Shown: positions 24,247 through 39,907 of the stretch, piece by piece
Numbering within the stretch: the stretch's first letter is position 1
Layout: each line of letters starts with the position of its first letter
From: Planctomycetia bacterium
GTDB lineage: Bacteria > Planctomycetota > Phycisphaerae > Phycisphaerales > SM1A02
Length of the DNA stretch: 50,957 nt
Direction of reading: 5' to 3'
NCBI GenBank assembly: GCA_005799495.1
Contig: SYGP01000023.1
Coordinates: 1 to 50,957, forward strand
Position numbers and translations under genes: made by a program
Notes under the pieces: model-generated
The model's input: only the letters and a program-made list of their open reading frames with translations
Told to the model about the DNA's origin: nothing
Database searches by the model: none

Positions 24247-25251
24247 TCAGTCGGACTTGCCGCTGCCGTCCTTGACTTGCGAGGGCGGCGAGAAGTCCTT
24301 GCGCGGCGGCGGCTGAAGATAGTTGTTGCCGCTGTTTGGGTTGTTTCGGTCGTAGGCAAACGCCTCGCGGTTGCGGACGAAATCCTTGACATAGCGCGCG
24401 GGAATGGCGAATCCAAGGGACTCACCGCCACGGATACCCATATTGGTGATGCCGACCACCTCTCCTCGCGTGTTGAAGAGAGGTCCGCCCGAATTGCCGG
24501 GATTGATGGCCGTGTCCGTCTGGATGTAGGTGAGCCCATCGAAGTTCCGCGATGTCGTGGACACGACCCCCTGTGTCATCGTTCGCTCAAGCCCCAACGG
24601 ATTGCCGATCGCGAAGACCCCCTGTCCGATCTCGAGCGCATCCTCGCGCACCACGGGCGCAAATCCAAATGGCTTGCCTTCCGGGTGCTTGATGCGAATG
24701 AGCGCCAGATCAATCTGGTTGTTCACCGCCAGCAGTTCGACATCCTCGATCTCCATGCGCTTGAGCGAGCCATCGGACTGCGGCAGCCAGATGGTGGTGC
24801 GCAAATTGGTCTCGCCCTGCACCACATGCGCGTTGGTGATGGCAAATCCATCGGGGCTGATGATCACGCCCGACCCAAGCCCCCCTGGCGTGGAAACCTT
24901 GATGACCGCCGGTCCGATCGACTTGGCGTGCTCGCGCGGCGGCAGTTCAGGGAGGTTGTCCATCATCGAGAAGAGGCTGTCCTCCGTGCGCTTCACGGAG
25001 TTGCTGCTGTTGGTCGCCTGCACATCCGCGACATCGGACATCTCAAACACGAGCACGTCGGGTCCCACATCGATCCACACTCGGCGGTCCGATCGTTTGA
25101 CGATGTCGCCCTCAATCTTGCGACCGCTCTTGAGCACGACGACATCGGTGGTTGGTGCCACTGCCGCCGCGGTCTCGTCCTCCGCGCGAGTGTGAGGATT
25201 CAACACCAAGCACGCGAACAGGCCAGCCACAATGATGATTCGACTCTGCAT
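24247..25251 (-). CDS. Periplasmic trypsin-like serine protease (HtrA type, no PDZ)
   Basis: The 334-residue product has a signal peptide, then a small beta module (DVVVLKSGRKIEGDIV...VFEMSDVADV, about residues 35-85) found in other planctomycete secreted proteins. The protease domain follows. The triad is visible: His in ITNAHVV, Asp in NNQIDLALIRI, Ser in NPGNSGGPLF. The PDZ domains of DegP or DegS are absent; the end is a short Pro/Asn-rich tail. A quality-control role in the envelope is the family expectation. ATG 25251 is preferred to the upstream start at 25278 because that one would overlap the divergent gene. Confidence 0.88.
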   Translation of the reverse strand: MQSRIIIVAGLFACLVLNPHTRAEDETAAAVAPTTDVVVLKSGRKIEGDIVKRSDRRVWIDVGPDVLVFEMSDVADVQATNSSNSVKRTEDSLFSMMDNLPELPPREHAKSIGPAVIKVSTPGGLGSGVIISPDGFAITNAHVVQGETNLRTTIWLPQSDGSLKRMEIEDVELLAVNNQIDLALIRIKHPEGKPFGFAPVVREDALEIGQGVFAIGNPLGLERTMTQGVVSTTSRNFDGLTYIQTDTAINPGNSGGPLFNTRGEVVGITNMGIRGGESLGFAIPARYVKDFVRNREAFAYDRNNPNSGNNYLQPPPRKDFSPPSQVKDGSGKSD

Positions 25252-25257
25252 GCCCTG

Positions 25258-25264
25258 ATAGTAT
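25258..25264. promoter_or_regulatory. Overlapping divergent -10-like elements
   Basis: The sequence ATAGTAT gives TACTAT on the minus strand, six bases before ATG 25251, and TAGTAT on the plus strand, twelve bases before ATG 25277. The two genes are only 25 bases apart, so both promoters must lie here or inside the neighbouring genes. Confidence 0.45.
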
Positions 25265-25276
25265 CCAAGTTCTCCC

Positions 25277-27634
25277 ATGCAAAAGCTGCAACTCCTTCGG
25301 GCTCTCGCCGTCGCTTCGGCACTTTCCCTTCGCGCGTTCGCTCAGGCACCGACTTCGGCGATCAGCGACCACTTTGGATTCAATCCGGTCGAGGCCATCA
25401 AGGTGGACAAGAACGGCGGACCGCTTGCCACGGCGGATCTCGATGGTGACGGCAAGCTTGACCTCATCGCCGTGAACAATCGCAACAGTCGAATCGATCT
25501 GCTGTACCAACGCCCGGATGCCAAGCCGACCGATGAGGTTGCCGCGCCAACAAGCGTGAACGAGATCCCTCAGCACTGGCGCTATCGGCGCGTGGAACTG
25601 CCAGTCACCGATGAGGTCGGCGGTGTGATCCCAGCGGACTTCGACGGCGACAAGCGCGTCGATCTCATCTACTCGACCGGCACTGGAAAGATCGTCTTCG
25701 TGCGACAGACTGCGCCAGGTGTCTTTGAAGTCGCCCGCAAGCACACCATCAAGGGGTTGAACCCCAGTCGCGATGCATTGCTTCTGGCGCAAGTGATCGG
25801 CGATCCGAAGCCTGAACTCGTCGGGATCGCCAACGGACGCATCCAGGCGTGGCCGCTGCAAGGATCGGACCTTGGAACTGCAGTTGAACTTGCCGCTGGC
25901 AACGGGAACCTGGTTGCCGTCCTTGCAGGCGATCTCGATGGCGACGGCACGACGGATCTGATCGGCATCCTTCCCGATGACGCTGCGCCGCTGCGCGCTT
26001 GGTTCGGCGCCACCAAGGGGGGTGAAGCAACGCTCGGCGCGCAGAACCGCTTCGAAATGCCGCCACTGCGCGATGCGGACCTTGTGCAACTGCCAGGTGC
26101 AAAGTCCGCCTCGGTGACCGTCCTTGAGAAGCCATCGAAGCGTGTGGTGTTGCTGCAGGCGGACCGCGAGTCGATCACCGAGGGTGGTGACCGCGAAGCC
26201 AGTCTGCAGACCTGGACCTTCACGGATCCCTCGAACCGCAAGCGTGATACGGCGATCGCAGACATCGATGGTGACGGACTTCCGGACCTGCTTGCGACGA
26301 ATACGGAGGCGAACGCGGTGTCCGTCTTTCAACAGGTGGCAGGGCGTGGATTCGCAGGCATGCAGAACTCCCCTGCCTACAGCGACCTCGATTTCATCGT
26401 GGCACGAGACATCAACGGCGACGGCAAGGCAGAGGTGTTCGTCAGCAGCGAAAAGGAAGGCGTCGTCGGACGCATGGCGCTGCAAGGCTCGGCGCTTGCG
26501 TTCCCCACCACCATGCCGCTTGCGCAAGGCAATGTGCCATCCGCGCTCGGGCTCGTCGCCGTGAACGATCGCAACTGGCTCGCTGTGATCGCGAAGGAAG
26601 GGCGCAACTACTCCCTCGAACTGCTGCCTGCCGATGGGAACGGCGATGGGAAGGTGATCATCTCGCTCGGGTCGCTCAGCCGTGCACCAGACACGATTGT
26701 TGCGCTCGACGCGGATCAGGATGGTCGCACCGACCTTCTGCTCTTCACCCCGGACAAGCCGATGACGATGCTGAGGCAGGAGCCGCCCGCAGCGGGTGCC
26801 GCGGCGAACGCGCCGCCCACCTTCAAGACGCTCGAGAGCAAGGACATGGGACAGTTTGGTCTGGCGCAGGCCGCCAACGCACAGAACACGACGACCATGG
26901 ACATCGACGGCGATGGCAAGCAAGAACTGCTCGTTGCAGACCGCAACTTCGTGCGCGGGCTGCGCTTCCATCCGACCACGGGCTGGCAGGTGGTCGAGCA
27001 AATCAATTCTGCGCGCGGCGATTCGAAGTTTGGATCGATCACGGTGCAGGGCGATCGGATTGCGGCAGGAGACAGCGACAATGGTCGTGTCGTGACATTC
27101 ACGCGTGATGCAACCGAGAAGAAGTGGAAGCAGTCGGATGTCTTCGATGTTCGAGGCTTCAAGTTCAACTCCATCACTGCAGGAAACTTCGCAGGTGGCA
27201 AGGATCCCTGCCTGCTGCTTGTCGGGAGCGACGGTTTTGGGGTGATGCGCTTCAGCGGATCCCGCGAGAAGCTCGCCGAGGTTGCGAGCTGGCGAAGCGA
27301 CGACACGGCTCGGGTGCCGCACGAACTGGCGTTCGGCGATCTCAACGGTGACTCGGTGACGGACGTCGTGGTGCTCGACGCAGGGAAACAGATGCTCGAT
27401 GTGCTCAGCATCAGCGAAGCCCGCGCGCTTCTGCCTGCCGTCAGTTTCAAGGTCTTTGAGAGCCGTCTTTTCTCTGGAGGCGAACCACGCGAGTTCGAGC
27501 CAAGTCAAGCCATCGTTCGAGATGTCACGGGCGACGGCGCTGCGGACCTCGTCCTCATGTGCCACGACCGGATCTTGCTCTACCCGCAGATGACCGCCCC
27601 AAGTCAGGGCAAAGGAAAGTCATCGTCGTACTGA
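25277..27634 (+). CDS. Secreted FG-GAP/VCBS repeat protein
   Basis: The 785-residue protein has a signal peptide (LLRALAVASALSLRAFAQ) and about ten DxDxDG-type calcium-binding loops spaced along its length, for example DLDGDGKLDLIAV, DFDGDKRVDLIYS, DIDGDGLPDLLAT, DINGDGKAEVFVS, DIDGDGKQELLVA and DVTGDGAADLVLM. Such FG-GAP/VCBS repeats fold into beta-propellers on secreted or surface proteins and often mediate binding. No enzyme domain is visible. The gene ends 25 bases before the GAF-SpoIIE gene on the same strand. Confidence 0.88.
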   Translation: MQKLQLLRALAVASALSLRAFAQAPTSAISDHFGFNPVEAIKVDKNGGPLATADLDGDGKLDLIAVNNRNSRIDLLYQRPDAKPTDEVAAPTSVNEIPQHWRYRRVELPVTDEVGGVIPADFDGDKRVDLIYSTGTGKIVFVRQTAPGVFEVARKHTIKGLNPSRDALLLAQVIGDPKPELVGIANGRIQAWPLQGSDLGTAVELAAGNGNLVAVLAGDLDGDGTTDLIGILPDDAAPLRAWFGATKGGEATLGAQNRFEMPPLRDADLVQLPGAKSASVTVLEKPSKRVVLLQADRESITEGGDREASLQTWTFTDPSNRKRDTAIADIDGDGLPDLLATNTEANAVSVFQQVAGRGFAGMQNSPAYSDLDFIVARDINGDGKAEVFVSSEKEGVVGRMALQGSALAFPTTMPLAQGNVPSALGLVAVNDRNWLAVIAKEGRNYSLELLPADGNGDGKVIISLGSLSRAPDTIVALDADQDGRTDLLLFTPDKPMTMLRQEPPAAGAAANAPPTFKTLESKDMGQFGLAQAANAQNTTTMDIDGDGKQELLVADRNFVRGLRFHPTTGWQVVEQINSARGDSKFGSITVQGDRIAAGDSDNGRVVTFTRDATEKKWKQSDVFDVRGFKFNSITAGNFAGGKDPCLLLVGSDGFGVMRFSGSREKLAEVASWRSDDTARVPHELAFGDLNGDSVTDVVVLDAGKQMLDVLSISEARALLPAVSFKVFESRLFSGGEPREFEPSQAIVRDVTGDGAADLVLMCHDRILLYPQMTAPSQGKGKSSSY

Positions 27635-27659: not shown

Positions 27660-28967
27660 GTGAGCGGCACCAAGTCGGGGGCAGCTCCCGCAGAGGCACT
27701 GCGTCAACTCCTCGAACTGTCGAAGAAGTTGGGGGAGACCTCGGACTTGGCTTCCGTGCTTGGCGCAGTGATCAACGCCCTACGCGACCTGCTGCAAGCG
27801 GATCGTGCCACGGTATTCACTTTCGACAGCCGAAGCGAGGAGTTGGTCATTCATGTGGCGCACGGCGTCGGCGAGGGCGGCGCTGAAGTCCGCGTCCCCG
27901 CGTCCGCTGGCATTGCCGGAGCCTGCGCAACAAGCAAACGGATCATCAACATCCCCGATGCCTACGCGGACCCACGCTTCAACCGTGATGTGGATCGCCG
28001 GACCGGCTATGTGACCAAGTCCATTCTCGCCGTGCCGCTGCTTGATGATGAGGGCGACCTCGTTGGGGTCGCACAGGTCCTCAACGCGAGGAGTGGCGCC
28101 TTCGACGACGGGGACTCTGTGCTTGCCCAAGGCATCGCATCCCAAGCCGCCATCGCGCTGCGCCGGGCGCAGTTGATCGCCGACAACATCGACCGCGCTC
28201 GGCTTCTCAAGGAGATGGCGGTTGCCAAGGAGATTCAGGAGGGAGCATTCCCCAAGGGCATCCCAGACCATCCCGCCTTTGATGTGGCAGCGCGCAGTAC
28301 GCCCGCGGAGGACTGCGGAGGTGACAGCTTCGATGTCTTTGGCACGAGAGAAGGCACTCTGTGCAGCAGGGATGAAGCTGCGGATCAACTCGTCCTGTTT
28401 CTCGCCGATGCAACCGGCCACGGCGTCGGCCCCGCCATTTCATCCATGCAGGCGCGCGGCATGATGCGGATGGGAATTCGACTGGGTCGAAGCATCGAAC
28501 AGATCGCCCACGAGATGAATGTGCAGTTGAGTGAGGATCTCCCACCAGGCAGATTCATCACTGCTTTCATCGCTGCACTCGACCTCATCACTTGGCAAAT
28601 CAAGGTGTTCAGCGCGGGTCAAGGGCCCATCTACATCTATCGATTCGCGAGCGACACATTCGAAGAGATCGAGAGCGATACGCCGCCCTTCGGCATCATC
28701 ATTCCCGGCTTCGGCGGGGGCCCCTGCCGCACGTTCGAGCTCGGCGTCGGCGACATCCTGCTGCTGATCACGGATGGCTACTACGAGGCGCAATCGCCGG
28801 ATCACAAGTGCTGGGGTGAGAGTGCGGTCTGCAGGGTGATTCGTGGACTCCGCGACGCGCCGTGCGAGTCCATCTGCGACGCGCTCGACCGCGGGGCACT
28901 TGAGTTTGCACGAGCAGCGCATACGGACGACGATCGGACCGCCATCATCCTGCGCAGGCGTTTCTGA
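27660..28967 (+). CDS. GAF-domain SpoIIE-type PP2C phosphatase
   Basis: The 435-residue cytoplasmic protein joins a GAF sensor (about 30-175, with AGACATSKRIINIPDAY and TGYVTKSILAVPL) by a helix (RARLLKEMAVAKEIQEG) to a SpoIIE-type Ser/Thr phosphatase. Metal-binding acids are in CGGDSFDVF, LADATGHGVG, ITDGYYEA and HTDDDRTAI. Enzymes of this kind usually control anti-sigma/anti-anti-sigma switches, but none is encoded nearby. GTG 27660 has GGAGG eight bases upstream. The gene converges on the CHASE2 cyclase gene with 36 bases between the stops; these contain a GCGGC/GCCGC hairpin (28986-28998) without a T-run. Confidence 0.9.
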   Translation: MSGTKSGAAPAEALRQLLELSKKLGETSDLASVLGAVINALRDLLQADRATVFTFDSRSEELVIHVAHGVGEGGAEVRVPASAGIAGACATSKRIINIPDAYADPRFNRDVDRRTGYVTKSILAVPLLDDEGDLVGVAQVLNARSGAFDDGDSVLAQGIASQAAIALRRAQLIADNIDRARLLKEMAVAKEIQEGAFPKGIPDHPAFDVAARSTPAEDCGGDSFDVFGTREGTLCSRDEAADQLVLFLADATGHGVGPAISSMQARGMMRMGIRLGRSIEQIAHEMNVQLSEDLPPGRFITAFIAALDLITWQIKVFSAGQGPIYIYRFASDTFEEIESDTPPFGIIIPGFGGGPCRTFELGVGDILLLITDGYYEAQSPDHKCWGESAVCRVIRGLRDAPCESICDALDRGALEFARAAHTDDDRTAIILRRRF

Positions 28968-29003: not shown

Positions 29004-31673
29004 TCACTTCGCGCGCAGGTGGAGCACGCCGTCTTCTGGGGCTTCACCAGACCGCACATCTTCTATCGCAGTGAGATACATCGCACTCAACTTCGACGCG
29101 CCGAACTTGGACTCGAATGCCCGCCATGCCTGCTCGGCATCCGACGTCCGTTTCTCCCGGAAGAGTCCCACCGCCGCTTCCGTCGCGGCGATCCATCCAG
29201 CATCCGCATCGGCGGCACATGCCTCGAAGATCTCCACAGGCTTCGACTGCCCAACGACCACGATCGCGCCAAGAGCGCGCGTGCGCACATGGGGGTTGCC
29301 ACCCTGTGCCATGAATCCGCGGTGGGTGGGGCCATCCATCAAGATCGCCGTCCCAAACTGCTTGTTCGCGCTCTCGAGCCGTGCCGACAGGTTCACGCAG
29401 TCTCCGATTGCCGTGTAGTCATTCAACTTCGGCGGTGCACCGCAATCGCCCACGACGGCCTCACCCGTGGCGATGCCGAGGCGAAGCGAAATCCTCGGCG
29501 ATCCGCTTTCGGCATTCTTTCCAAGTTCAGCGACAGCCTTCTGGCACGCCACGGCGCTTTCCGCTGCCAACGATTCCTGCCGTGGCTCGTCACCAAATGC
29601 AGACCAAAACGCCATGAAACCATCGCCGAGGAACTTGTTGACATAGGCATTTCGCTCCACGAGTTCTTCGGAGAGCTTGCCGAGATAGGTATTGAGCGTC
29701 CGAACCACTCCCGGACCGCCGAGAGCTTCGGCAATCGAGGTGAACCCCGCCAAATCACCGAACATGACGGTGATCTCGCGCTCTTCGCCCGACATGGAGA
29801 CAGCCTCTGGGTCGCCCGACAACTTCGCCACGAGTTGTGGTGACACACGAGCTGCAAACTGCCGGTTGATGCGCGCGCGATCGCGCGCCGTCAACACTGC
29901 GACCACGGCGGTCGTGGTCGCCCATGATCCGACGGGCGACGCCGTTGGCCCCGCGAGCGGCATGATCCAATCCAGTTCGTTGAAGCAGAAGATGCCAGCC
30001 ACAAACAGCCATCCTCCGACAAGCAGGAGCATCAGCACGGAACTGAAGCCGACCGACAGGGATGCCGCGATCAGTGTTGCTGCGACGCCAAGCACCACCA
30101 CCACAAGCGGATTGACCCAAGCCGGTGCAGTCTGACGGCCATGACCTTCGAGCACCATGTTTGCAGCAACGACATGCACAAAGACCCCTGGCGTTCTGCC
30201 ATCGAGTGCGGTCGGGACAAAGTCGGCGTTCGCACCGGTCGCCGTCCAACCAATGAACACCAGCTTCCCAGAAAGTTTCGCGCGAAGCTCAGCCTCCCGA
30301 CCCTTCAAGTCAGCCTGTGCCTCGTCCACAGCATCGCAGAGCTGAAGGAAATTGCCTGCTTTCGCGCGATCATCTCCCTCGAGATCCATGCGCGCGTCTT
30401 CCACCGCTGTGCGAAAGGCCTGATCACTGGACTGGGCTTGGGGAGTCTGCAAGTCAGCAACGCTGCGGACAAGCTCCGCTTTGAGCGCATCCCGGTTCCT
30501 GCAATTCTCCTCCTGCTTCTGACGTCCGTCGTGCAAGTCGAGCACCTGTCCGATGGAAATCGCAGGGCGCTCCGCGCCGGCCATGCCGGGCTGAGTCCAC
30601 TTTCCAAACTCGCCATCAAAGGTGGAAGTAGGCCAGTCGATGTACAGGACTCCTTCGCGAAGCGGAAGGACTCGCTGCCCGACCCGAACTTCGCTGTCTG
30701 AGCTGCTGATATCGACAGGCTTCAACCCTTGATGTGCAGCGGCCGCAACAAGTCCAATCTGGAATACCCGACCGCCAGGCACTTGCCACTCCACGGGCGT
30801 TCGACGCTTGTCATCATCCGTATCGAGGGCACTTTCGACGTTGGTCAGGACGCCAAGCGCATGTGCTGCCTCGGACAACTGCGGGATCGGTGGAACCTGT
30901 GTGTGGCCTCCAAGCGGAACAAGTGGATCGGAGTGATCCGACATTTCCTGTCGGAGACTCTCCCAGCTCCTCGCGTGACGAAGAAGTTGTTCGACCAACT
31001 CCCTGTCGCCGACTGAAAGCGGATCCACACGACCACCTCGCAGGCCTGCTGCCACACCCTCGATCGACGGCAGTCGCCCTGACTTTCGGTACTCCTCCCA
31101 CAGGAACTTCCACACGGCGAGTTCCTTGAACCACACCGCGTGAGCGCGGTACTGGCGCCCCCATTCTCCTTCAAGTTTCGCCTCCTGCATGACGGTTTCG
31201 GGAGGGAGTTCAACATTGGTGCGGAGAGCCTGCAGGATGAGTGCCCACTTTTCCTGTCCCTCGGGTGACGACCACTCGGAGCCTGGAATCCACTGCTTGG
31301 AAACATCGAGCCCAACGACCGTTGGAATCTCTTTGACAGCCAAGCCGAGTACATCGTCTGCCTTTGGCTCAGGCTCGCTGAACTGGATATCGAGGGCAAG
31401 CGTCTTTGCTCCAAGGTGGCGCAGTTCCTCGATCGCGTCAGCGATTTTCGTACGAGACCAAGGCCACCTTCCAAAGGTCTCAAGCGAAGTGTCATCAATC
31501 ACGACCAGTGCGACCTCGTCCGAGAGCGGCACTGGCTTCCTGCGAGCGTGTTGGTATCGCCAATCGGCACTCGCCAATTCCACATTGTTCAAGAGGCCCA
31601 GCACAGTCGCCAGCCAAATCAACAGAGTTGTTGCCAATCCGATGGCGACCGCCAACCAAGAAAACTGCCGCAT
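29004..31673 (-). CDS. CHASE2-domain class III adenylate cyclase
   Basis: The 889-residue protein starts with a membrane helix, followed by a large CHASE2-type periplasmic sensor (about 30-530). A long helical insertion interrupts it, and its end is marked by GKLVFIGWTATGANADFVPT. Three membrane segments (about 540-620) lead to the cyclase domain (about 630-815). Metal-binding Asp residues lie in MFGDLAGFTS (about 640) and FLGDGFMAFW (684); Lys680 and the Thr of DYTAIGDCVN (754) are the purine-specifying pair, favouring ATP over GTP. A short TPR-like tail follows. It is the last gene of the putative four-gene operon, 46 bases after the giant FecR-domain gene. Confidence 0.92.
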   Translation of the reverse strand: MRQFSWLAVAIGLATTLLIWLATVLGLLNNVELASADWRYQHARRKPVPLSDEVALVVIDDTSLETFGRWPWSRTKIADAIEELRHLGAKTLALDIQFSEPEPKADDVLGLAVKEIPTVVGLDVSKQWIPGSEWSSPEGQEKWALILQALRTNVELPPETVMQEAKLEGEWGRQYRAHAVWFKELAVWKFLWEEYRKSGRLPSIEGVAAGLRGGRVDPLSVGDRELVEQLLRHARSWESLRQEMSDHSDPLVPLGGHTQVPPIPQLSEAAHALGVLTNVESALDTDDDKRRTPVEWQVPGGRVFQIGLVAAAAHQGLKPVDISSSDSEVRVGQRVLPLREGVLYIDWPTSTFDGEFGKWTQPGMAGAERPAISIGQVLDLHDGRQKQEENCRNRDALKAELVRSVADLQTPQAQSSDQAFRTAVEDARMDLEGDDRAKAGNFLQLCDAVDEAQADLKGREAELRAKLSGKLVFIGWTATGANADFVPTALDGRTPGVFVHVVAANMVLEGHGRQTAPAWVNPLVVVVLGVAATLIAASLSVGFSSVLMLLLVGGWLFVAGIFCFNELDWIMPLAGPTASPVGSWATTTAVVAVLTARDRARINRQFAARVSPQLVAKLSGDPEAVSMSGEEREITVMFGDLAGFTSIAEALGGPGVVRTLNTYLGKLSEELVERNAYVNKFLGDGFMAFWSAFGDEPRQESLAAESAVACQKAVAELGKNAESGSPRISLRLGIATGEAVVGDCGAPPKLNDYTAIGDCVNLSARLESANKQFGTAILMDGPTHRGFMAQGGNPHVRTRALGAIVVVGQSKPVEIFEACAADADAGWIAATEAAVGLFREKRTSDAEQAWRAFESKFGASKLSAMYLTAIEDVRSGEAPEDGVLHLRAK

Positions 31674-31719
31674 CGGCGCAGTGTCCCCGCTCTTTCGCGA
31701 TCATGCAACCAACACGCGA

Positions 31720-34700
31720 TCACTGAGTGCCAGCACCACCCCCAGGTTGGCCATTCTCGGTGACGATGCCCCCAGACTGCCCCGCCAAAGCGGCTGCAGC
31801 GGCGGCATCACTCTGCGCGCGAGCCGCAGCGTCGATTGCGAGATCCGCCGCCACTCTTGCCTCATTGGCGCGCTGGACGACAACCGCCGCACGCTGGGCG
31901 GTGACCGTGAAGAAAACGCGTTCCCCCATGAAACGCGCACTCTGTGCTGCCGCAAGAGCCGCGTCGCGCGACTGTGCTGCCTGCTGAGCCTGCAAGACCG
32001 CACCATCACGCGCTGCTGCTGCAATGTCGGATGCACTTCCCGCGCGCAGCGTGCCAAGCTGGGCGGCCAAGATCGCTGCCGCTTCGGCAAAGCCGCTGGA
32101 CCGCCCGGCTGCGCCCTCTGCAATCCCGAAAGACTGCACGGCACCAGCTGCGAACGAATCCGCCAGCGACACAGCACCGAGGTACTGCTGTGCAGCAACA
32201 TCCGACTGCTCAGCATGCCCAATGGCTTGGTCCCCCATCGTGCGCGTCTCGACCGCTGCTGCATCGCTCAACCCTGCCGCAATCGCGCTGGCATCCGCGG
32301 CAACCTGAGAACTCTGGGCATTGAACGAAACGCCCGTCGAGTCGCCCGACTGAAATGCTGCCTGCGTGTCGATGAAGCGGAGGTTGGCAACCCCAGACTG
32401 AAAGACTGCGATGTCGGACTGCTCCCACGCTGTTGCGAGCGTCACGGCCGAAGCAGAGACGAGCCCATCGACTGCGGCAAGAGCCGTGTCATGAGCGGCA
32501 ATGGCACCTGCCGCTGCATCCCGGGCAACCTCCGCACCAAAGCGATTCGTTTCAGCATCCTCCGCCGCGTCCGCGGCCATGCGCGCCTCGAATACGGATC
32601 CTACGGTGACCTGAGCGAGCGCTCGGTACTGGGAAGCCTGCAGCACCGCGAGTTGTGCCCCCTGCATCTGCTGCTGAGCGTCACCGACATCAACGCCGAG
32701 CTCCGCGACCGTCTGCGCTATGGCGTTCGCGTTCTGCTGCGAGAGAGTCTGGCGCATCTGCTCAGCTTGGGCCGATGCAATCTGCAATTGGTTCGTTGCA
32801 TCAAGCGCGCGGGCAATGGCCTCACCCGCAAGGATCGCCGCACGATCCGCGAGTGCCTGCGCCACCGCAGAGTCTGCCATGACTGCCGAATCCTGAGCCA
32901 ATGCCGAGGACTGGGTAGCCGCTTCGGAAAGCCCTTGGACCACGGCGGTACCCGCTGCGAGATCGCCAACGGCGCCACCGGAGCCCGTCTCACCGCCCAC
33001 TGCAAATGCGATCTCACGCGCAGCCATCTCCAGCGACAGCCCCTGCTGCGCAAGCTCATCCCCTTGCCCTGCGAACGAATGCGCAGCGGCCGTTGCGAAC
33101 TGCGCCGCATCGACAGCTGCCACGACATCTCCAGACAGATCCCCCACCTGCATGGCGAGTGCGGCCCCTGCCTCTGGGTCTGCGCTGCCCTGAGCGCCGT
33201 CCGTCTCAAGGGCTTGAAGCATCTGATCGAAGGTCGACTCCAGGCTCTGGAATTGCGCCTCGGCAGACTGGCGGAATTCAGCCGCGTTGCCGAGTTGTTC
33301 TCGAGCGTCCGCCACGCGATCGAGTGCGGCAAGCGATACGCCGTCTTGAGCCTCAACGAAGAAATTGAAGTCAGTGGTTGCCTCGGAGATGACCTGCGCG
33401 CCAAGGACCAACCCGCCCGCGATGTTCGCCGTCTCAAGACCGATCTCCAGCGTCACGACCGTTGCAGCGGCTGTATCGAGCGTCAAAGCCCGACGATCCG
33501 CTCCCGCCAAGACCGACTGCAGCGAATCGAGGGCTGACTGAGCCGCCTGCAAGGCCGGTTCGCTCGAGGCAAGCGCGAAAGAGTCGATCCGAGTTCGAAG
33601 TCCCACGGTGGCATCCGCCGCTTCCGAGGCTGCGCTCTGCGCCTCGCTGGCGCTGATTGCCGCGGCGTTTGCAAACGCAGCGGAACGAGCCACGAGCAAG
33701 TCGAGCGCATCACCCGAAGCACTGCCCCCGAGTTGTGCGAGGTCCGCGAAAATGCCGGTCGCCCCGGCCGCGGCGGCAGACGACGCTGCAGCGAGTGCCG
33801 CGGAGTCCGCTTCGGTGGCAGCAGCCTCTGCTTCAACCTCCGACTGAAGCGCGAGATCTTGAGCCACAGCGAACTGTTCTGCCAAAGGCTGTGCAAATGT
33901 CTCCGCCGCTTGCGCAGCCGCCAAGGCGGCGGATGCGGACTCGGTCGCGGCATCGACAATCAGTGCAACACTCTCGTCGCCAGTCGACCCGCCCACCTGC
34001 GCCAAGACATCTTCTGCCGCCGTCAGCGACCGCTCATCGAGCGCACCGAGCAGCGCCGTCATCTCGGCATCAAAGGCTTCGAGCAGTTCACTCAAACCAG
34101 ACTGTGCCACAGACGCATCATTGGCGGCAGCTTGCGCGAGTCCGATCTGCTCCTCCAACTCCTGCGAACCCAGTTCAAGCTGATCGAGAACTTGCCCCGC
34201 ATCGGCGGAGAGAAGAGTGCTGTCCTCAGAGCGGCCGCCGGCAGCGAACGCAAACTCGGATGCAAGACCAGCTTCCGAGGCAGCCGCCACCGCGGTTTCA
34301 GCCGTTGCTGCCTCCGCGTCGGCGACTGCGGCAAGCCGCTCGGCCTCGCCAGCAGCATCATTCGCTTCTGCAGCGGACTGCACTGCCGATGCGATGTCAC
34401 CCGCGGACGACTTGAAGTCAATCTCCTCGCCAAACGGATCAAGCACCGCATCAAGCGCACTCTGTGCTCCAACGACTGATGCGCTTGCCTGGTCCGCGGA
34501 GTCCTGTGCCTCCGAGGCAAGCGTCAACGCCCGTGCGACTGCATTCAACGCTGCGGCCGCCGCGGCAGATGCGGAGGACTGTGGATCCAACGGGTCAGCG
34601 AACTGCGCCGCAAAGGCGCTTCCCGATGACTCCGCAGACACCGCGGCCGTCGAGGCGTCGAGCGCATGCCCCGCCGCAGCATCTGCGCGCTCCTGAGCGC

Positions 34701-36936
34701 CCAGGATGACCTGTCGAATCGTGGCGATCCTCTCGGCATACACGCCCCCTGCGCCCAAAGACTCCTGCCCTGTAGCAAGCGCGGACTCGGCGGCCTCGCC
34801 GGCTCGATCCGACGCTGAACGCGCATCGAGTGCGTTCCCCTGAGTGGCTTGGGCAGCGTCGCGAGCCTCTGCGGCGAATCCTCCTGCGGCTCCAAGATCT
34901 GGCTGCGCCTCCTGCAGGACAGCCAAGCAATTCTCCACCGCGGTACTCGTGAGTCCAGCGTTCGCGAATGCTTGGTCGAGATGCCCCAGTGCTTCCGCCA
35001 AGGCCGTGCTCGCAGCAACCGCGGCATCCGATGCGCCTTGCGCTGCAGCAACATGAATATCGATCTGGGCCTGTGCTTCGGCCGCGCGGGCAGATGCCAC
35101 TTCCCGCAATGCCTCCGCTGCGGCGCGCTCGGCCTCGGCATTCTCGCGTTCATCTCGCGCACCCAACATTGCACTGATCGCTGCAGTCAGCGACTCGATT
35201 CCCTGCGCGAGGTCGGCAGCCGCCGCCTCGGATGCGGCTGCTGATTCGTTCGCCGCTTCGGCGCGATCTCTCGCTTCCTGAGCCGCCAATTCGGCCGCAG
35301 CAAGAACGGCACCTGCCGCTTCCTCCTGAGCCGTCAGGGCTGCCTGAATTGCCTCATCTCGAAGCGGTTGTGTTGCGAGCAGTCGCTCCTCTGCTTGCAC
35401 AAGTTGGTCGAGTGCGGCCAACAGCCCACTGCGGATTCCATCGAGCGGTCGGCGAGAAAAGATGGACTCGATGTCGGCGATGGCGGCGACCACAAGATCA
35501 CGGAAAGCCGTTCCGTCGCTCAAGGATTGCTCCGCTGCCGCACCTGCATCGCCCGTGCGCGTCGCTGCCGCATCCACATCTGCGCGAGCTGCGATGGCAA
35601 GCGTCAGTCGGTCGAGCGTGACCTGAAGGACCTCATCAGCGACCTCGGCTCCGAACGAAGCATCGCGTGCGGACGACTCGGCGCTCGCAGCGCCCACTCC
35701 CGCGAGATCGACAAAGTCTGGCGAATCGACGCCGCCCTGATCGCTGAAGGCATCGAATGCGGCTCGGGCTGCATCGAGAGACTCGATCCGGCTTGCTTCC
35801 GATGCAGCGCTTGCCTGCAGCGTCAGTTCGAGCAACACACCCACATCAGCCGATGCATCGAGGACGGCTTGCTCCGCCACTTGAAAGTCGAGGATGCGAT
35901 CGCGCGTGTCGGAGAGCGCGCCCTGTGCGGCAAGCAGTGCCTGTGCGGCACTTGCCAGTCGGGCTGCCGTTCCATCTGCCCCGGCCGCCGCATCCGCCAC
36001 TCGCTCAGCCGTGCGGTTCAAATCAGCAAACAGTGCGAGAACACTGTTCCCGGAATTGCTCCCGTCCTGACCAGCCTGGACCGAGGATGTCTCAGCGGCA
36101 GTCTGGGCCACGGCGGCCACCGTGGCGGTGACCTGCTGAATCACGGGTGCTTGAGTCGTTCCAACGACGGCCGATTGGACTGCCTCCGCAGCGCTGGCCA
36201 CCGTGCCTGCAACGGGCGGCGCGCCGATCGATGTGATGAGTGAGTTCGTTGCCGGCTCGGGTGTCTCGGATGAGCTCTTGGCCTCACCACCACCCGAGAG
36301 AACAACAGGCGCGCTGACTGCCGCGTACTTCAGCTGGATTGCGGCGATGGCGTTGCTGGGAACACCTGTGACCTCCGTACCACCCATTGGTCCGGTGTTG
36401 ATGGTGAATCCCGTACCGCGAACGGCGAGTGTGCCGTCCGGCACGACGACATTGAAGTCATTTCGCGCGGTGATTCGATTGACCTTGATGCCAGCCGTAC
36501 CCACCTGAATCTTTGCAATGGCCTTGAAGACATCGCCGTCCGCCTCCTGCACCAACTCACAGTTCGGGATGGAGAAGTCGGAATTCTTGTCCACGATCAC
36601 GGTGGCATGGGGCGTTTCCCCCGCCTTCCAGCCCTTGAGAACGAAGTTCAGCGTGCAGCGGGCCGAAGCTCCCGTCGACACCTCGCTGCCCGGCGGCAGC
36701 ACATCGTCAACCTTCGCCAGCTTCGCATCCTTCCACGCTGTCGCGCTGCTGCTGCGCCACTTCACGCGACCTTCCGTCTCAATCACTCGGATCTCGATGG
36801 TCCGACTCGGCGCTCCAGCATCTTGCGTTGGCGTGGGCTGCATCGGCAGCGGTACCGCACCCGCGGACGCCACCAAGCACGCGAGTGTCAACACTGCACC
36901 TCCGCTGCACGAGATGAACGATCTACTTCGGTTCAC
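31720..36936 (-). CDS. Giant secreted FecR-domain protein with Ala-rich, nearly lysine-free helical body
   Basis: The 1,738-residue protein has a signal peptide (GGAVLTLACLVASAGA) and a FecR-like beta domain (about 45-210) with VIETEGRVKWRSSSATAW, VDDVLPPGSEVSTG and VVVPDGTLAVRGTGF. From about residue 220 to the end it is one low-complexity helical region very rich in Ala, Ser, Asp, Glu and Gln, with heptad-like spacing. By eye I find a single Lys (EEIDFKSSAGD) and one Cys in about 1,500 residues, while Arg is common. The C-terminus is Gly-rich. This suggests an acidic, extended coiled-coil fibre in the periplasm or on the surface, with the FecR part as anchor or sensor. No known family covers the body to my knowledge. 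Confidence 0.85.
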   Translation of the reverse strand: MNRSRSFISCSGGAVLTLACLVASAGAVPLPMQPTPTQDAGAPSRTIEIRVIETEGRVKWRSSSATAWKDAKLAKVDDVLPPGSEVSTGASARCTLNFVLKGWKAGETPHATVIVDKNSDFSIPNCELVQEADGDVFKAIAKIQVGTAGIKVNRITARNDFNVVVPDGTLAVRGTGFTINTGPMGGTEVTGVPSNAIAAIQLKYAAVSAPVVLSGGGEAKSSSETPEPATNSLITSIGAPPVAGTVASAAEAVQSAVVGTTQAPVIQQVTATVAAVAQTAAETSSVQAGQDGSNSGNSVLALFADLNRTAERVADAAAGADGTAARLASAAQALLAAQGALSDTRDRILDFQVAEQAVLDASADVGVLLELTLQASAASEASRIESLDAARAAFDAFSDQGGVDSPDFVDLAGVGAASAESSARDASFGAEVADEVLQVTLDRLTLAIAARADVDAAATRTGDAGAAAEQSLSDGTAFRDLVVAAIADIESIFSRRPLDGIRSGLLAALDQLVQAEERLLATQPLRDEAIQAALTAQEEAAGAVLAAAELAAQEARDRAEAANESAAASEAAAADLAQGIESLTAAISAMLGARDERENAEAERAAAEALREVASARAAEAQAQIDIHVAAAQGASDAAVAASTALAEALGHLDQAFANAGLTSTAVENCLAVLQEAQPDLGAAGGFAAEARDAAQATQGNALDARSASDRAGEAAESALATGQESLGAGGVYAERIATIRQVILGAQERADAAAGHALDASTAAVSAESSGSAFAAQFADPLDPQSSASAAAAAALNAVARALTLASEAQDSADQASASVVGAQSALDAVLDPFGEEIDFKSSAGDIASAVQSAAEANDAAGEAERLAAVADAEAATAETAVAAASEAGLASEFAFAAGGRSEDSTLLSADAGQVLDQLELGSQELEEQIGLAQAAANDASVAQSGLSELLEAFDAEMTALLGALDERSLTAAEDVLAQVGGSTGDESVALIVDAATESASAALAAAQAAETFAQPLAEQFAVAQDLALQSEVEAEAAATEADSAALAAASSAAAAGATGIFADLAQLGGSASGDALDLLVARSAAFANAAAISASEAQSAASEAADATVGLRTRIDSFALASSEPALQAAQSALDSLQSVLAGADRRALTLDTAAATVVTLEIGLETANIAGGLVLGAQVISEATTDFNFFVEAQDGVSLAALDRVADAREQLGNAAEFRQSAEAQFQSLESTFDQMLQALETDGAQGSADPEAGAALAMQVGDLSGDVVAAVDAAQFATAAAHSFAGQGDELAQQGLSLEMAAREIAFAVGGETGSGGAVGDLAAGTAVVQGLSEAATQSSALAQDSAVMADSAVAQALADRAAILAGEAIARALDATNQLQIASAQAEQMRQTLSQQNANAIAQTVAELGVDVGDAQQQMQGAQLAVLQASQYRALAQVTVGSVFEARMAADAAEDAETNRFGAEVARDAAAGAIAAHDTALAAVDGLVSASAVTLATAWEQSDIAVFQSGVANLRFIDTQAAFQSGDSTGVSFNAQSSQVAADASAIAAGLSDAAAVETRTMGDQAIGHAEQSDVAAQQYLGAVSLADSFAAGAVQSFGIAEGAAGRSSGFAEAAAILAAQLGTLRAGSASDIAAAARDGAVLQAQQAAQSRDAALAAAQSARFMGERVFFTVTAQRAAVVVQRANEARVAADLAIDAAARAQSDAAAAAALAGQSGGIVTENGQPGGGAGTQ

Positions 36937-36972
36937 TGCGTCGACTCCTTCCTCGTGCCCATCGTTGATCCA

Positions 36973-37569
36973 TCACTCGAACCGCCCTGTTGGAGGCAGC
37001 ACCCGCTTCGTGGAGGATGGCTTTGCATCCCCTGCGGCCGCTGCCTGCGCGAGGGCGGAGGCACCATCCAAGTTTGCATTTCGCGACAGGCGCGTCAAGA
37101 AGTCAACGAATTCTGCACCCGTAAAACTCATGCCGTCCTGCTTCCCAACAAGAATCTGCTCATTTCGCAGTTCCCGCACGGCGTAACGCGGAATCGGACC
37201 CCAAATCCGCATGTTCACCCCCCCATCCACCTTCGCAATCCGGCACGCGGCCGTGGCAATCCAACCCACTTCCGCACTCTCCGTGGAGGGTTCGTCAAAG
37301 CCAGTCGGCAGCCACTTGCGGCGCTTGGCCTCCGCGACTCGTTCCGAAAAGGTCCCCCAATGATCTTCGCCGTCTGCCAGCAGGAACAGCGCATGCAGCG
37401 CATCCTCATTGCTGACGAGTGTTGCCTCCTTCAACTCCTCGAAGAACTCGATCTCCTCGTCCGTCGTGGGAAATCGCTCGACAACCGATGTGGTGCCAAA
37501 CTGCCGTTCGCAGCCGACGGCCCATCCGACTCCGAGCAGCGCACACACCACCCACGCTCTAAAACGCAT
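36973..37569 (-). CDS. Lipoprotein in the CHASE2/FecR operon
   Basis: The 198-residue protein has a signal sequence with the lipobox AVGC (Cys about 20). The mature domain is helical, with TTDEEIEFFEELKEATLVSNEDALHALFLL (in pieces), a Trp-containing WGPIPRYAVREL and an Ala-rich end. I do not recognise a family. Its start lies inside the last 11 bases of the upstream beta-barrel gene and it ends 36 bases before the giant FecR-domain gene, so it is embedded in the operon and probably links the two in the envelope. ATG 37569 begins the signal sequence; the frame is open seven codons further. Confidence 0.75.
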   Translation of the reverse strand: MRFRAWVVCALLGVGWAVGCERQFGTTSVVERFPTTDEEIEFFEELKEATLVSNEDALHALFLLADGEDHWGTFSERVAEAKRRKWLPTGFDEPSTESAEVGWIATAACRIAKVDGGVNMRIWGPIPRYAVRELRNEQILVGKQDGMSFTGAEFVDFLTRLSRNANLDGASALAQAAAAGDAKPSSTKRVLPPTGRFE

Positions 37570-39109
37570 AGGTGCCTCCGATGTACACAAAGTCGCGCGT
37601 CCCCGACTGCGATGGCGCGAATGCCGCCTGGTTCGGCATGAAGATGCCGTACTTGAAGCTCAGGTCGAGATCGCTGAGCAATCGCCATTCGAGGCTGAAG
37701 TCGACTTCACCGCCGACATAGTTCGTGCCACCCGGTTGCGTCTGGAACGACAGTGGCGCGTTCGACAGGATGCGCCCGAAGAGAAACCCCGTCACACCCA
37801 GACGCAAGTTGTGGAAGATGCCGCCGCCCGGAAAGGGACTTGTGCTGAAACCGACCGATGGGCAAAGCAAGTTGGCGAAGTCAGGCGAGAGCACAAGACC
37901 CGTGTTGACATATCCGAGTGAGTTGAATGATGTATCGACTGCACCTGGGGCAATGCCGCCGAAGGTGTTGCCCGAATCGAGACGATCCGACGAACCACTG
38001 CCTGCCACGATCTGAAAGTCGATTCGCGAGTCAGCTGGGTCGCGTCCAAGCCATGTCAATCCGCCGAGCCCCGCGACTGCAGAAATCGTCACATTCTGCT
38101 GCGGAACGGGGGTGAGCGTTCCATCGCGAGGCAGTGGATCGGAAAGTGTGGTGCCGTACTCGTACATGCACTCCGCGCGGTACACCAGACCTGCACCGAG
38201 CGACCCATTGCTGCCAAGCCCGACATAGCTCGAGTCGTAGTTGAAGGTTGTCGGGATGGTTGGCAGCGCGGCAGGCAGCAGCGCAACCTGCCCCTCGTTC
38301 AAGTCCTTCTGGGCGAGCAGATAGACATACGGACGATGACCGGCGAATCCCGAGTACTCGAGCTTTCCGCCGTAGAAAAGCCGCTGCGTGTCCGTGTCAT
38401 AGCCCGGCCGTGAAAGGTCCCAGTCGATGGTGTCGTTCCCGCTCGTGACGCCAATCAATGCCGTCGCCTTCCAGTCGCGCCATGAGAAGTCAAAGATGCC
38501 TGCGTACATGTAGTTGCTCAGCGCAGCACCCTGACCCCAGATCACATACTGCCGTCCCACCTTCGCAACGAAGTTGTAGTCGGGTTTGTTGCCGGTCTGC
38601 GCACGGATCATGCCCGCGAGATTGAACTCATACCAATAGATCTCGCCGATCGGATTCTGCCAACCGACATCGTCATAGTCGGGCCCGATCGCTCGCGTGC
38701 CACGGAAATCCCATTGGTTGTATTGGAATCGGAGCCTGCCGAAAAAGCGGTGGGCACCATCGAGCTCGATGGATGTGAAGAGCCGCAGGTCGTAAATCTG
38801 CTGGTAGGTCTCCTGACTCTGCGCCGTGTCGATGATGTTGAAGGCGTAGCGGAAGGTGCCACCGTACTCAATGCTCAACCTCTCCGAGATTGGGGCGTTG
38901 GCGTAGTACGCCTGCCTCATTTCCGCATCCTCTTGGTTGAGTTGACGCTGCAGATTCTCTGCCGAGCGAAGAGCCGCGGTATCGGATCCCTGTGCAGCAA
39001 CTTCCACGGCGGCCACTCCCCATGCCAGCAGCACCGAGATGGTGACAGCCCCTTGCACGACACAGGGGAAGCGATGTTGGAGGATTGCCGAAGCCACTCG
39101 CTGGATCAT
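37559..39109 (-). CDS. Outer-membrane beta-barrel protein, alginate-export/porin-like
   Basis: The 516-residue product has a signal peptide (VTISVLLAWGVAAVEVAAQ) and a short helical plug-like stretch (LRSAENLQRQLNQEDAEMRQAYY). Many alternating amphipathic strands rich in Tyr, Phe and Gly follow, ending in an aromatic C-terminus (YIGGTYAF) as expected for BAM-inserted barrels. The pattern (RLRFQYNQWDFR, VAKVGRQYVIWGQG, SLEWRLLSDLDLSFKYGI) resembles AlgE-like export porins; substrate unknown. ATG 39109 is assumed; GGGAG lies 14 bases upstream, so a TTG at 39121 is possible. It is the first gene of the operon with the lipoprotein, giant FecR-domain protein and cyclase. Confidence 0.82.
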   Translation of the reverse strand: MIQRVASAILQHRFPCVVQGAVTISVLLAWGVAAVEVAAQGSDTAALRSAENLQRQLNQEDAEMRQAYYANAPISERLSIEYGGTFRYAFNIIDTAQSQETYQQIYDLRLFTSIELDGAHRFFGRLRFQYNQWDFRGTRAIGPDYDDVGWQNPIGEIYWYEFNLAGMIRAQTGNKPDYNFVAKVGRQYVIWGQGAALSNYMYAGIFDFSWRDWKATALIGVTSGNDTIDWDLSRPGYDTDTQRLFYGGKLEYSGFAGHRPYVYLLAQKDLNEGQVALLPAALPTIPTTFNYDSSYVGLGSNGSLGAGLVYRAECMYEYGTTLSDPLPRDGTLTPVPQQNVTISAVAGLGGLTWLGRDPADSRIDFQIVAGSGSSDRLDSGNTFGGIAPGAVDTSFNSLGYVNTGLVLSPDFANLLCPSVGFSTSPFPGGGIFHNLRLGVTGFLFGRILSNAPLSFQTQPGGTNYVGGEVDFSLEWRLLSDLDLSFKYGIFMPNQAAFAPSQSGTRDFVYIGGTYAF

Positions 39110-39163: not shown

Positions 39164-39907
39164 ATGAGTTTTGAAGCCATCATTCTTGGAACGGGGAGTG
39201 CGCTCTCGGAGATGCACTTTGGCTCCTCTGCAGTGCTGCCGTGGCGTGATGGCCTTGTGCTGATTGACTGCCCCGATGCGATTCTGCGCGCACTCGCGCA
39301 CGCATCGAAACGCAGCGGACGAGCCATCGATGCAATGCGAATCACCGACATTCTCGTCACGCACCTCCACGGGGATCATGTGAACGGTTTGGAAACAATT
39401 GGGTGGAAGCGCTGGATCGCGAAACTGAACGGACTCGGTCCCGTTCCCCGCTTGCACACCGTCGAACCCGTCGCGCGTCGCCTCTGGGAGCGACTCGGAC
39501 CCGCCATGGATCAGAACGGGACGCTGCAGTTGGCCGATTACTTCGACCTGCACATCATCCCCCTGGGGGTTCCCACCCGCGTGGCTGACTTTGATGTGGA
39601 GGCACGCCTGGCGGAGCACCTGATCCCTGGGTGCGGCTACCGAATCTCGCGCGGCGGCGCCACGCTCGGATGGAGCGGCGACACGCGGTTTGATCCCGCC
39701 CACATCGACTGGCTCGCGACCGCAGATGTCATTGTTCACGAGACGAGCGAATCGCGCGTTCACACACCGATCGAATGCCTCAACTCCCTTGCGCCAGAGC
39801 TGCGGAAGAAGATCCGCCTCGTGCACATGGAGGACAACTTCGATCAGGCCGTCACGGACATCGTGCCGCTGACCGAGGGCGAAGTGCTCGCCGTGCCGCC
39901 ACGCTGA
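39164..39907 (+). CDS. MBL-fold metallohydrolase (RNase Z/phosphodiesterase-like)
   Basis: The 247-residue protein begins ILGTGSALSEMHFGSSAVL, as in RNase Z-like enzymes. It has the zinc motif THLHGDHVNGLE (HxHxDH), followed by GWSGDTRF and IVHETS, and a last metal-ligand candidate His in LVHMEDNF. It lacks the exosite of tRNase Z, so a phosphodiesterase or unknown hydrolase is as likely as tRNA processing. Its last 64 bases overlap the end of the opposite-strand citrate synthase gene. Confidence 0.85.
   Translation: MSFEAIILGTGSALSEMHFGSSAVLPWRDGLVLIDCPDAILRALAHASKRSGRAIDAMRITDILVTHLHGDHVNGLETIGWKRWIAKLNGLGPVPRLHTVEPVARRLWERLGPAMDQNGTLQLADYFDLHIIPLGVPTRVADFDVEARLAEHLIPGCGYRISRGGATLGWSGDTRFDPAHIDWLATADVIVHETSESRVHTPIECLNSLAPELRKKIRLVHMEDNFDQAVTDIVPLTEGEVLAVPPR

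Follow-up and report, generated by a model that had tools for sequence, protein, structure and literature searches.

Several described systems link a CHASE2 receptor with a protein of the cell envelope. In Campylobacterota, a gene cluster holds a CHASE2 adenylate cyclase together with a FecR protein, a phosphodiesterase and a TPR protein (PMC9239204). In Sinorhizobium meliloti, the outer-membrane barrel NsrA acts through the CHASE2 cyclases CyaD1/CyaD2/CyaK (PMC7529298, PMC13001267), and SMc02177, a FecR-domain protein, belongs to the cyclic AMP (cAMP)-dependent regulon of Sinorhizobium (PMC5498481). The BiofilmReg operon of Burkholderia joins a LysM-FecR protein to a CHASE2 histidine kinase, and the signal sensed by CHASE2 is called unknown in that source (PMC5192318). 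In magnetotactic bacteria, mtxA is followed by a CHASE2 cyclase gene (PMC4439547). FecR/CHASE2 and barrel/CHASE2 systems are known already, and the cassette that we describe here varies on them. It lies in a stretch of 50,957 nucleotides from a Planctomycetia bacterium (contig SYGP01000023.1, here called the window) and encodes an outer-membrane barrel, a lipoprotein, a FecR-domain secreted protein and a CHASE2 cyclase. We think it probable that these four proteins form an outside-in unit, which would convert the state of the outer membrane or of the cell wall into cytoplasmic cAMP.

At positions 29004-39109 the four genes follow one another in a single direction, as a preliminary description of this DNA had it; their coding strand is the minus strand. 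The barrel gene (37559..39109, 516 residues, ATG at 39109) shares the 11 bases 37559-37569 with the lipoprotein gene (36973..37569, 198 residues). The FecR gene (31720..36936, 1738 residues, GTG start) follows 36 bases after the lipoprotein gene, and the gene for a putative CHASE2 class IIIb-type adenylate cyclase (29004..31673, 889 residues) a further 46 bases after FecR. Against NCBIfam, the four proteins gave only matches below the cut-offs. A divergent gene at 39164..39907 on the plus strand encodes a probable Apyc1-like phosphodiesterase of the metallo-beta-lactamase fold (247 residues).

The Campylobacterota cluster resembles this locus in that a class III cyclase with CHASE2, an envelope protein with a FecR domain and a phosphodiesterase are encoded close together in both, whereas neither a barrel of AlgE type nor a lipoprotein of SLH fold is mentioned in the available part of its description (PMC9239204). 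The phosphodiesterase is here Apyc1-like with a metallo-beta-lactamase fold, and no TPR match is found in the window's four proteins. Like the proposed unit, the NsrA system has an outer-membrane beta-barrel that acts upstream of CHASE2 cyclases, and a FecR-domain protein is part of its cAMP-dependent regulon. In contrast, its barrel comprises residues 600-1200 of a larger protein (PMC7529298), which is likened to the cassette barrel by description only, and the Sinorhizobium response runs via the transcription factor Clr. BiofilmReg also sets a FecR protein, mostly with LysM, beside a CHASE2 receptor; it differs in its output of kinase and response regulator and in its fourth gene, which encodes a DUF4136 protein, and the text available mentions no barrel. 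For mtxA, an exported protein is again encoded beside a CHASE2 cyclase, whereas FecR is absent from the text at hand (0 occurrences), which mentions no barrel or lipoprotein partner (PMC4439547). In open-licence papers we found no description of this cassette in planctomycetes and did not meet the combination of AlgE-type barrel, SLH-fold lipoprotein and Apyc1-like phosphodiesterase. The initial impression that the set is not a described system holds, in these papers, for this combination; pieces of the idea are in print (PMC9239204; NsrA, PMC7529298, PMC13001267).

Conservation of the neighbourhood was followed in 121 genomes of the window's order and in a phylum-wide sample of 294 genomes. 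The barrel occurs in 43 of the 121 order genomes, the lipoprotein in 44 and the CHASE2 protein in 52, the last number including some genomes that match the cyclase domain only. Barrel and lipoprotein are found together in 41 genomes, with the barrel only in 2, the lipoprotein only in 3 and neither in 75. Their clustering exceeds chance (Fisher 3e-26 over 121 genomes, where kinship means that P does not refer to independent events), and matches to barrel and CHASE2 co-occur in 41 of the 43 barrel genomes (Fisher 1e-19). At the level of loci, counted for the order, outside it and in a scan of public contigs from hidden Markov model matches on stop-to-stop frames, 45 of the 48 barrel places in order genomes were read, leaving out the fragments G008:C118, G042:C77 and G064:C99. 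The lipoprotein adjoins the barrel in 45/45 loci (domain gaps 35-173 bases), FecR is present at 44 and CHASE2 at 42, once reversed. The full order of barrel, lipoprotein, one to three FecR and CHASE2 on a single strand is kept at 38 of the 45 loci; the other seven have CHASE2 reversed (1), CHASE2 before FecR (2), CHASE2 without FecR (1) or no CHASE2 (3).

The set is also found elsewhere in Planctomycetota. The lipoprotein family is present in 29 of the 294 phylum-wide genomes, 23 of them outside the order. With G364, G294 and G124, which have weak lipoprotein matches, left out, 22 outside-order loci in 20 genomes have the barrel in every case, FecR in 20 and CHASE2 in 12. Public genome contigs gave 61 barrel loci, some of them on contigs already counted above, and 44 of the 61 carry the complete set. 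The rest have lipoprotein and FecR without CHASE2 (10), the lipoprotein alone (1) or a contig end within 157 bases of the barrel (6). The four genes proposed beforehand as a system are a conserved unit, and the contrary case, that they stand together only in this window, is contradicted by the loci of the order, those outside it and those of the public contigs. Some other gene calls in this work come from a simple caller that makes certain barrels too long and overlooks certain genes, such as those for lipoprotein and FecR in L106, L107 and L110. By this caller, an overlap of exactly 11 bases between barrel and lipoprotein is seen in 19/91 called pairs, an undercount because the caller shortens starts and reports the window's own pair as a gap of 7. 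Among the loci L052-L164 some contigs are counted more than once; genome-level counts are free of duplicates.

The barrel protein has a signal-peptide-like start, a predicted N-terminal helix at residues 42-71 and a C-terminal F. Its structure model consists of 18 strands and the N-terminal helix (pLDDT 76.6, pTM 0.73). The closest structure to this model is AlgE (Foldseek E 1.5e-19; Z 29.8), with four rows aligning at a root-mean-square deviation (rmsd) of 3.2-4.1 over 358-385 residues. The family model PF13372 (Alginate_exp) is matched by 27/30 barrel family members at E <= 0.5 (best 4.4e-16); the window barrel itself reaches 22.5 bits at a cut-off of 25.2 and gave no match in a Pfam scan of the four proteins. 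The model and the family matches point to a divergent AlgE-type 18-strand outer-membrane barrel, which sharpens the earlier assignment as an outer-membrane beta-barrel.

The likeness to AlgE, an 18-strand alginate exporter, opens the possibility of an inside-out function. The barrel and the lipoprotein encoded directly downstream would export a polymer, in the manner of AlgE and a partner similar to AlgK, and the cyclase would be merely co-regulated or would control the exporter. We regard this as improbable. No polymer-synthesis gene was recognised among 15 other window proteins in a Pfam scan that covered part of the window's genes and no neighbours in other genomes; two of the 15 were without any match. 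The lipoprotein, with its predicted SLH-type fold, is also unlike AlgK, a TPR protein that is the partner of AlgE.

After AlgE, the OprD/Occ substrate porins are the next closest structures to the barrel model (Z up to 26.5), and NsrA is described as an outer-membrane receptor that transmits a protein signal via inner-membrane adenylate cyclases (PMC7529298). Both would suit ligand or nutrient sensing. The barrel, in the manner of NsrA or FecA, would be a receptor or a channel for specific uptake and would report an external ligand by way of FecR to CHASE2, while the lipoprotein would only assist assembly. We judge this explanation unlikely: the SLH-type fold of the lipoprotein and the LysM domain in some FecR proteins point to the wall, and no uptake gene was recognised among nine Pfam-scanned window neighbours.

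The lipoprotein has a lipobox-like site, AVGC with Cys20, and cysteine is found in all 38 of the 48 family rows that have a residue there. Its model (pLDDT 85.1, pTM 0.77) matches 13 SLH rows with Z 9.2-10.5 over 115-128 residues at an rmsd of 3.0-3.5, scores to be read with the caution that in helical proteins a Z below about 13 can reflect a common arrangement. After the SLH rows, structural matches fall to 6qvm, an S-layer cytochrome, at Z 6.9 and then to 3.0. The lipoprotein family is assigned to no Pfam family. We conclude from the model that the lipoprotein has a predicted SLH-type fold without an SLH sequence signature, and that the relation is one of fold likeness only because no SLH sequence match was found. 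The preliminary description had seen a lipid anchor in this protein; the lipobox-like site agrees with that, and the modelled fold suggests that it is more than an anchor. A DEP domain was weakened as a candidate, with a weak match in 1/48 members.

Planctomycetes belong to the Gracilicutes, and OmpM1 is among the structural matches of the present barrel (Z 20.1). In OmpM of diderm Firmicutes, as in the pair proposed here, an SLH-type domain works together with an outer-membrane barrel; OmpM joins the SLH domain to a general porin in one chain, whereas here two genes overlapping by 11 bases encode an AlgE-type barrel and the lipoprotein, with a linked cyclase gene (PMC10628300). The same source gives OmpM as absent from Gracilicutes (PMC10628300). 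From this likeness, barrel and lipoprotein could be a structural tether between outer membrane and wall, a split OmpM, with FecR and CHASE2 as an independent sensor that is linked by co-regulation only. FecR-CHASE2 pairs do stand alone, without a barrel, at L100 and L102. Against this, lipoprotein-FecR pairs without barrel or CHASE2, found in other genomic settings (L198:5454-7446, L199:5877-7799 and L200:5587-7257), link the lipoprotein to FecR directly, and we hold a separate tether and sensor to be very improbable. Four distant lipoprotein loci from order genomes, L198-L201, are all without a barrel. Because the pairs at L198-L200 and at L100 and L102 exist without a barrel, FecR appears as the hub of the cassette, and an outside-in relay via FecR to CHASE2 is therefore favoured.

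The FecR-type domain of the window protein was placed by its family model at 36250..36798 (-), about residues 47-229. The match to PF04773 has 15.4 bits, below the cut-off of 24, and 19/20 family members match the model at E <= 0.1 (best 1.2e-9). LysM is also present in 3/20 FecR proteins. From residue 251 to residue 1738 (31723..36186, minus strand) extends an alanine-rich tail with helical heptad-like spacing, containing 29.1% Ala and a single lysine, K842, in 1488 residues; the other script-called window proteins have 2.76% lysine. The fibre had been called lysine-free, which is nearly exact. Alanine positions in the tail correlate at spacings of 3, 4 and 7 residues (z 3.2, 4.0 and 5.8), the pattern that would be expected for a helical coiled coil. 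FecR proteins at the same gene position range from 253 to 1980 residues, and many relatives have short tails without an alanine-rich fibre. This range rules out the fibre as a defining part of the cassette, the role first given to it. Rather than a core part, the near-lysine-free fibre is a lineage-specific elaboration, seen in the window's genus and its near relatives. The length series, from 253 to 1980 residues, is a natural test of a periplasm-spanning relay. For the window, a classical FecI/FecR anti-sigma system was rejected, as no gene for an extracytoplasmic function (ECF) sigma factor was recognised in a Pfam scan of nine neighbours of the window's cassette, a scan confined to this genome.

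The cyclase has a CHASE2 region at 30072..31631 (-), matched with 104.8 bits at a cut-off of 26.3, and a class III catalytic region at 29358..29783 (-), where Guanylate_cyc is matched with 49 bits at a cut-off of 21.9. Six residues, D640, K680, D684, T754, N761 and R765, are kept in 38/38 relatives. We take them to have metal-binding, transition-state and adenine-selecting roles, as in class III cyclases generally. The best matches among solved chains are the adenylate cyclases 6fht, 3r5g, 2w01 and 1wc0. In agreement with the first assignment, the enzyme at the output end has the look of an active adenylate cyclase of class IIIb type, and cAMP is its presumed product.

The four genes of the preliminary description left out the divergent phosphodiesterase gene at 39164-39907. 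Its product is closest, by sequence matches to solved structures, to Apyc1 7u2r (4.6e-20), 7u2s and 7t28, with RNase Z far weaker (2e-4). The Pfam Apyc1 model PF23023 is matched with 47.5 bits, just below the cut-off of 50, Lactamase_B_2 with 7.9e-13, and the HxHxDH motif is present in all 49 distinct rows. The structure 7t28 is of Apyc1, and for Apyc1 and its relatives, class II phosphodiesterases, cleavage of cyclic mononucleotides, cAMP among them, is reported (PMC9117128). Unlike Apyc1 itself, the gene here goes with a cyclase cassette and lies on a genome contig. The product is probably an Apyc1-like phosphodiesterase and cyclic-nucleotide off switch, and a cAMP signal that can be reset would require just such a pairing of cyclase and phosphodiesterase genes. 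In the window's family, the phosphodiesterase is present in 16/16 cassette (barrel) genomes and in 1/20 others (Fisher 2.3e-9). In the order, it is found at E < 1e-40 in 20/43 barrel genomes versus 3/78 others (Fisher 2.3e-8), a test that omits the weak rows G035, G064, G082 and G113 (E 7e-15 to 9e-5), two of which are barrel genomes. By hand count, its gene adjoins the barrel gene in 15/16 family cassette genomes; in G108 it is on another contig, and the placement in G008 is deduced from coordinates on a short contig. Barrel loci divide into 51 with the phosphodiesterase, 61 without and 12 at contig edges. At 7 of the 61 loci, and at 1 of the 12, the barrel was called too long and the phosphodiesterase overlaps it, so that the corrected count is 58/112.

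A gene for a GAF-SpoIIE (PP2C-type) phosphatase lies convergent with the cyclase gene (27660..28967, plus strand). Over 103 CHASE2 loci, duplicate contigs included, this neighbour is convergent in 29, on the same strand in 7, absent in 59 and at a contig edge in 8, so that it adjoins 36/95 loci away from contig edges. In the seven same-strand loci, from other relatives, the phosphatase gene is directly downstream of the cyclase gene. The phosphatase is a possible output component. A cAMP-binding GAF domain in it was considered; the NKFDE motif of such domains was sought there and not found. At L208:4921-7101 (-) in the genome G015, an Apyc1-like phosphodiesterase gene comes directly after the gene for a PP2C phosphatase fused to a cyclic-nucleotide-binding (cNMP_binding) domain; this arrangement suggests cAMP-controlled dephosphorylation in that relative. 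The unit of four genes stands as conserved, but in the window's family it is larger, with the Apyc1-like phosphodiesterase gene and often the GAF-SpoIIE phosphatase gene.

For the output, the window's genome (97.8% complete) holds one CHASE2 protein, two class III cyclases and one cNMP_binding match. This sole match (L204:6208-7521) combines Ion_trans and Ion_trans_2 with a TIGYG filter-like motif and is of potassium-channel type. No clear CRP regulator was recognised in the same genome, in which a search for the Crp-type helix-turn-helix domain gave one partial match below the cut-off. Because the lone clear cyclic-nucleotide-binding protein is of potassium-channel type, the output in this genome may be ion flux rather than transcription. 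In the window's family, cNMP-binding proteins over the cut-off occur in 7/16 cassette genomes versus 0/20 others (Fisher 0.0014, or 0.012 when one weak G033 match is counted), and in the order a match is found in 29/43 barrel genomes versus 18/78 others. The seven family proteins are the potassium-channel-type protein L204, the MscS-cNMP proteins L215, L216 and L219, the Popeye-type proteins L217 and L218 and the cNMP-ferredoxin fusion L220. No single effector explains the system because 9/16 family cassette genomes have no cNMP-binding protein over the cut-off.

Several of these proteins are observations in their own right. MscS-type mechanosensitive channels with a C-terminal cNMP-binding domain are encoded at L215:2849-4438, L216:2194-3786 and L219:795-2375 in cassette genomes of the window's family. 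Bacterial proteins that match the Popeye family (POPDC) and carry a cNMP-binding domain are encoded at L217:3152-3901 and L218:2514-3857, and histidine-kinase-type ATPase proteins carry an N-terminal cNMP-binding domain at L221:3492-4856, L222:2608-3978 and L225:3246-4607. Elsewhere in the window, two genes at 24247-27634, one for a trypsin-like protease (-) and one for a protein with FG-GAP repeats (+), have starts overlapping by two bases, and this pair adjoins the GAF-SpoIIE phosphatase gene. A prolipoprotein diacylglyceryl transferase is encoded at 4940-6079 (-), with the LGT match at residues 18-340 and, inside it, a PDZ match at residues 184-250, possibly an unusual insertion.

Each layer of the envelope has one member of the cassette, a point of the preliminary description that is supported. 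What was observed for the cassette is its gene order and co-occurrence, the families and predicted folds of its proteins and the conservation of catalytic residues; the proposed contacts running from barrel through lipoprotein and FecR to CHASE2 would pass information inward. In this outside-in unit, the AlgE-type barrel and the SLH-fold lipoprotein would form a module between outer membrane and wall, and wall attachment is the signal that we prefer as the one read. The FecR protein would act as the relay in the periplasm; many relatives have a compact form of it, some add LysM, which binds the wall, and in the window's genus and its close kin it bears the long helical tail rich in alanine. 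The state of the relay would be received by the ectodomain of CHASE2, which would set the class IIIb-type adenylate cyclase, and in the window's family the divergent Apyc1-like phosphodiesterase would reset the signal. A narrower, mechano-chemical form can be proposed, in which barrel and lipoprotein gauge wall attachment, a length-adjustable FecR spans the periplasm and loads the CHASE2 cyclase, and an Apyc1-type enzyme of the host removes the cAMP, whose main readers are ion channels (potassium channel, MscS-cNMP) or Popeye-type membrane proteins instead of CRP. So fully specified, the proposal is speculative and doubtful to us.

Several observations weigh against the outside-in unit as we propose it. 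In the order, one of the 45 loci lacks FecR and three lack CHASE2, two of these with about 2 kilobases (kb) or less of contig left and L103 with 4.5 kb. Outside the order, CHASE2 is at just 12/22 barrel loci; some of the ten loci without it run into contig ends, and six (L184, L188, L193, L195, L197 and L203) have more than 5 kb of contig left. L148 is without CHASE2 despite 9.3 kb of spare contig. For the lipoprotein, the SLH scores lie in the range in which a common helical arrangement may suffice, Foldseek alone is weak (best E 0.032, to an SLH domain), and the Pfam SLH model is not listed for any of the 48 lipoproteins at E <= 1. The phosphodiesterase is confined to part of the order at E < 1e-40, the window genome's sole cNMP-binding gene is on another contig, and 14/43 barrel genomes have no cyclic-nucleotide-binding match. 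Contact from part to part and cAMP production are presumed in this proposal.

Planctomycetota are a phylum known for unusual envelopes. In these bacteria, the cassette is a candidate for a complete and conserved chain that leads from the outer membrane to a cyclase and whose likely parts can be named. It connects an SLH-type fold with a second messenger. The family that takes its name from Apyc1, an enzyme of phage counter-defence, gains a plausible host setting beside a cyclase.

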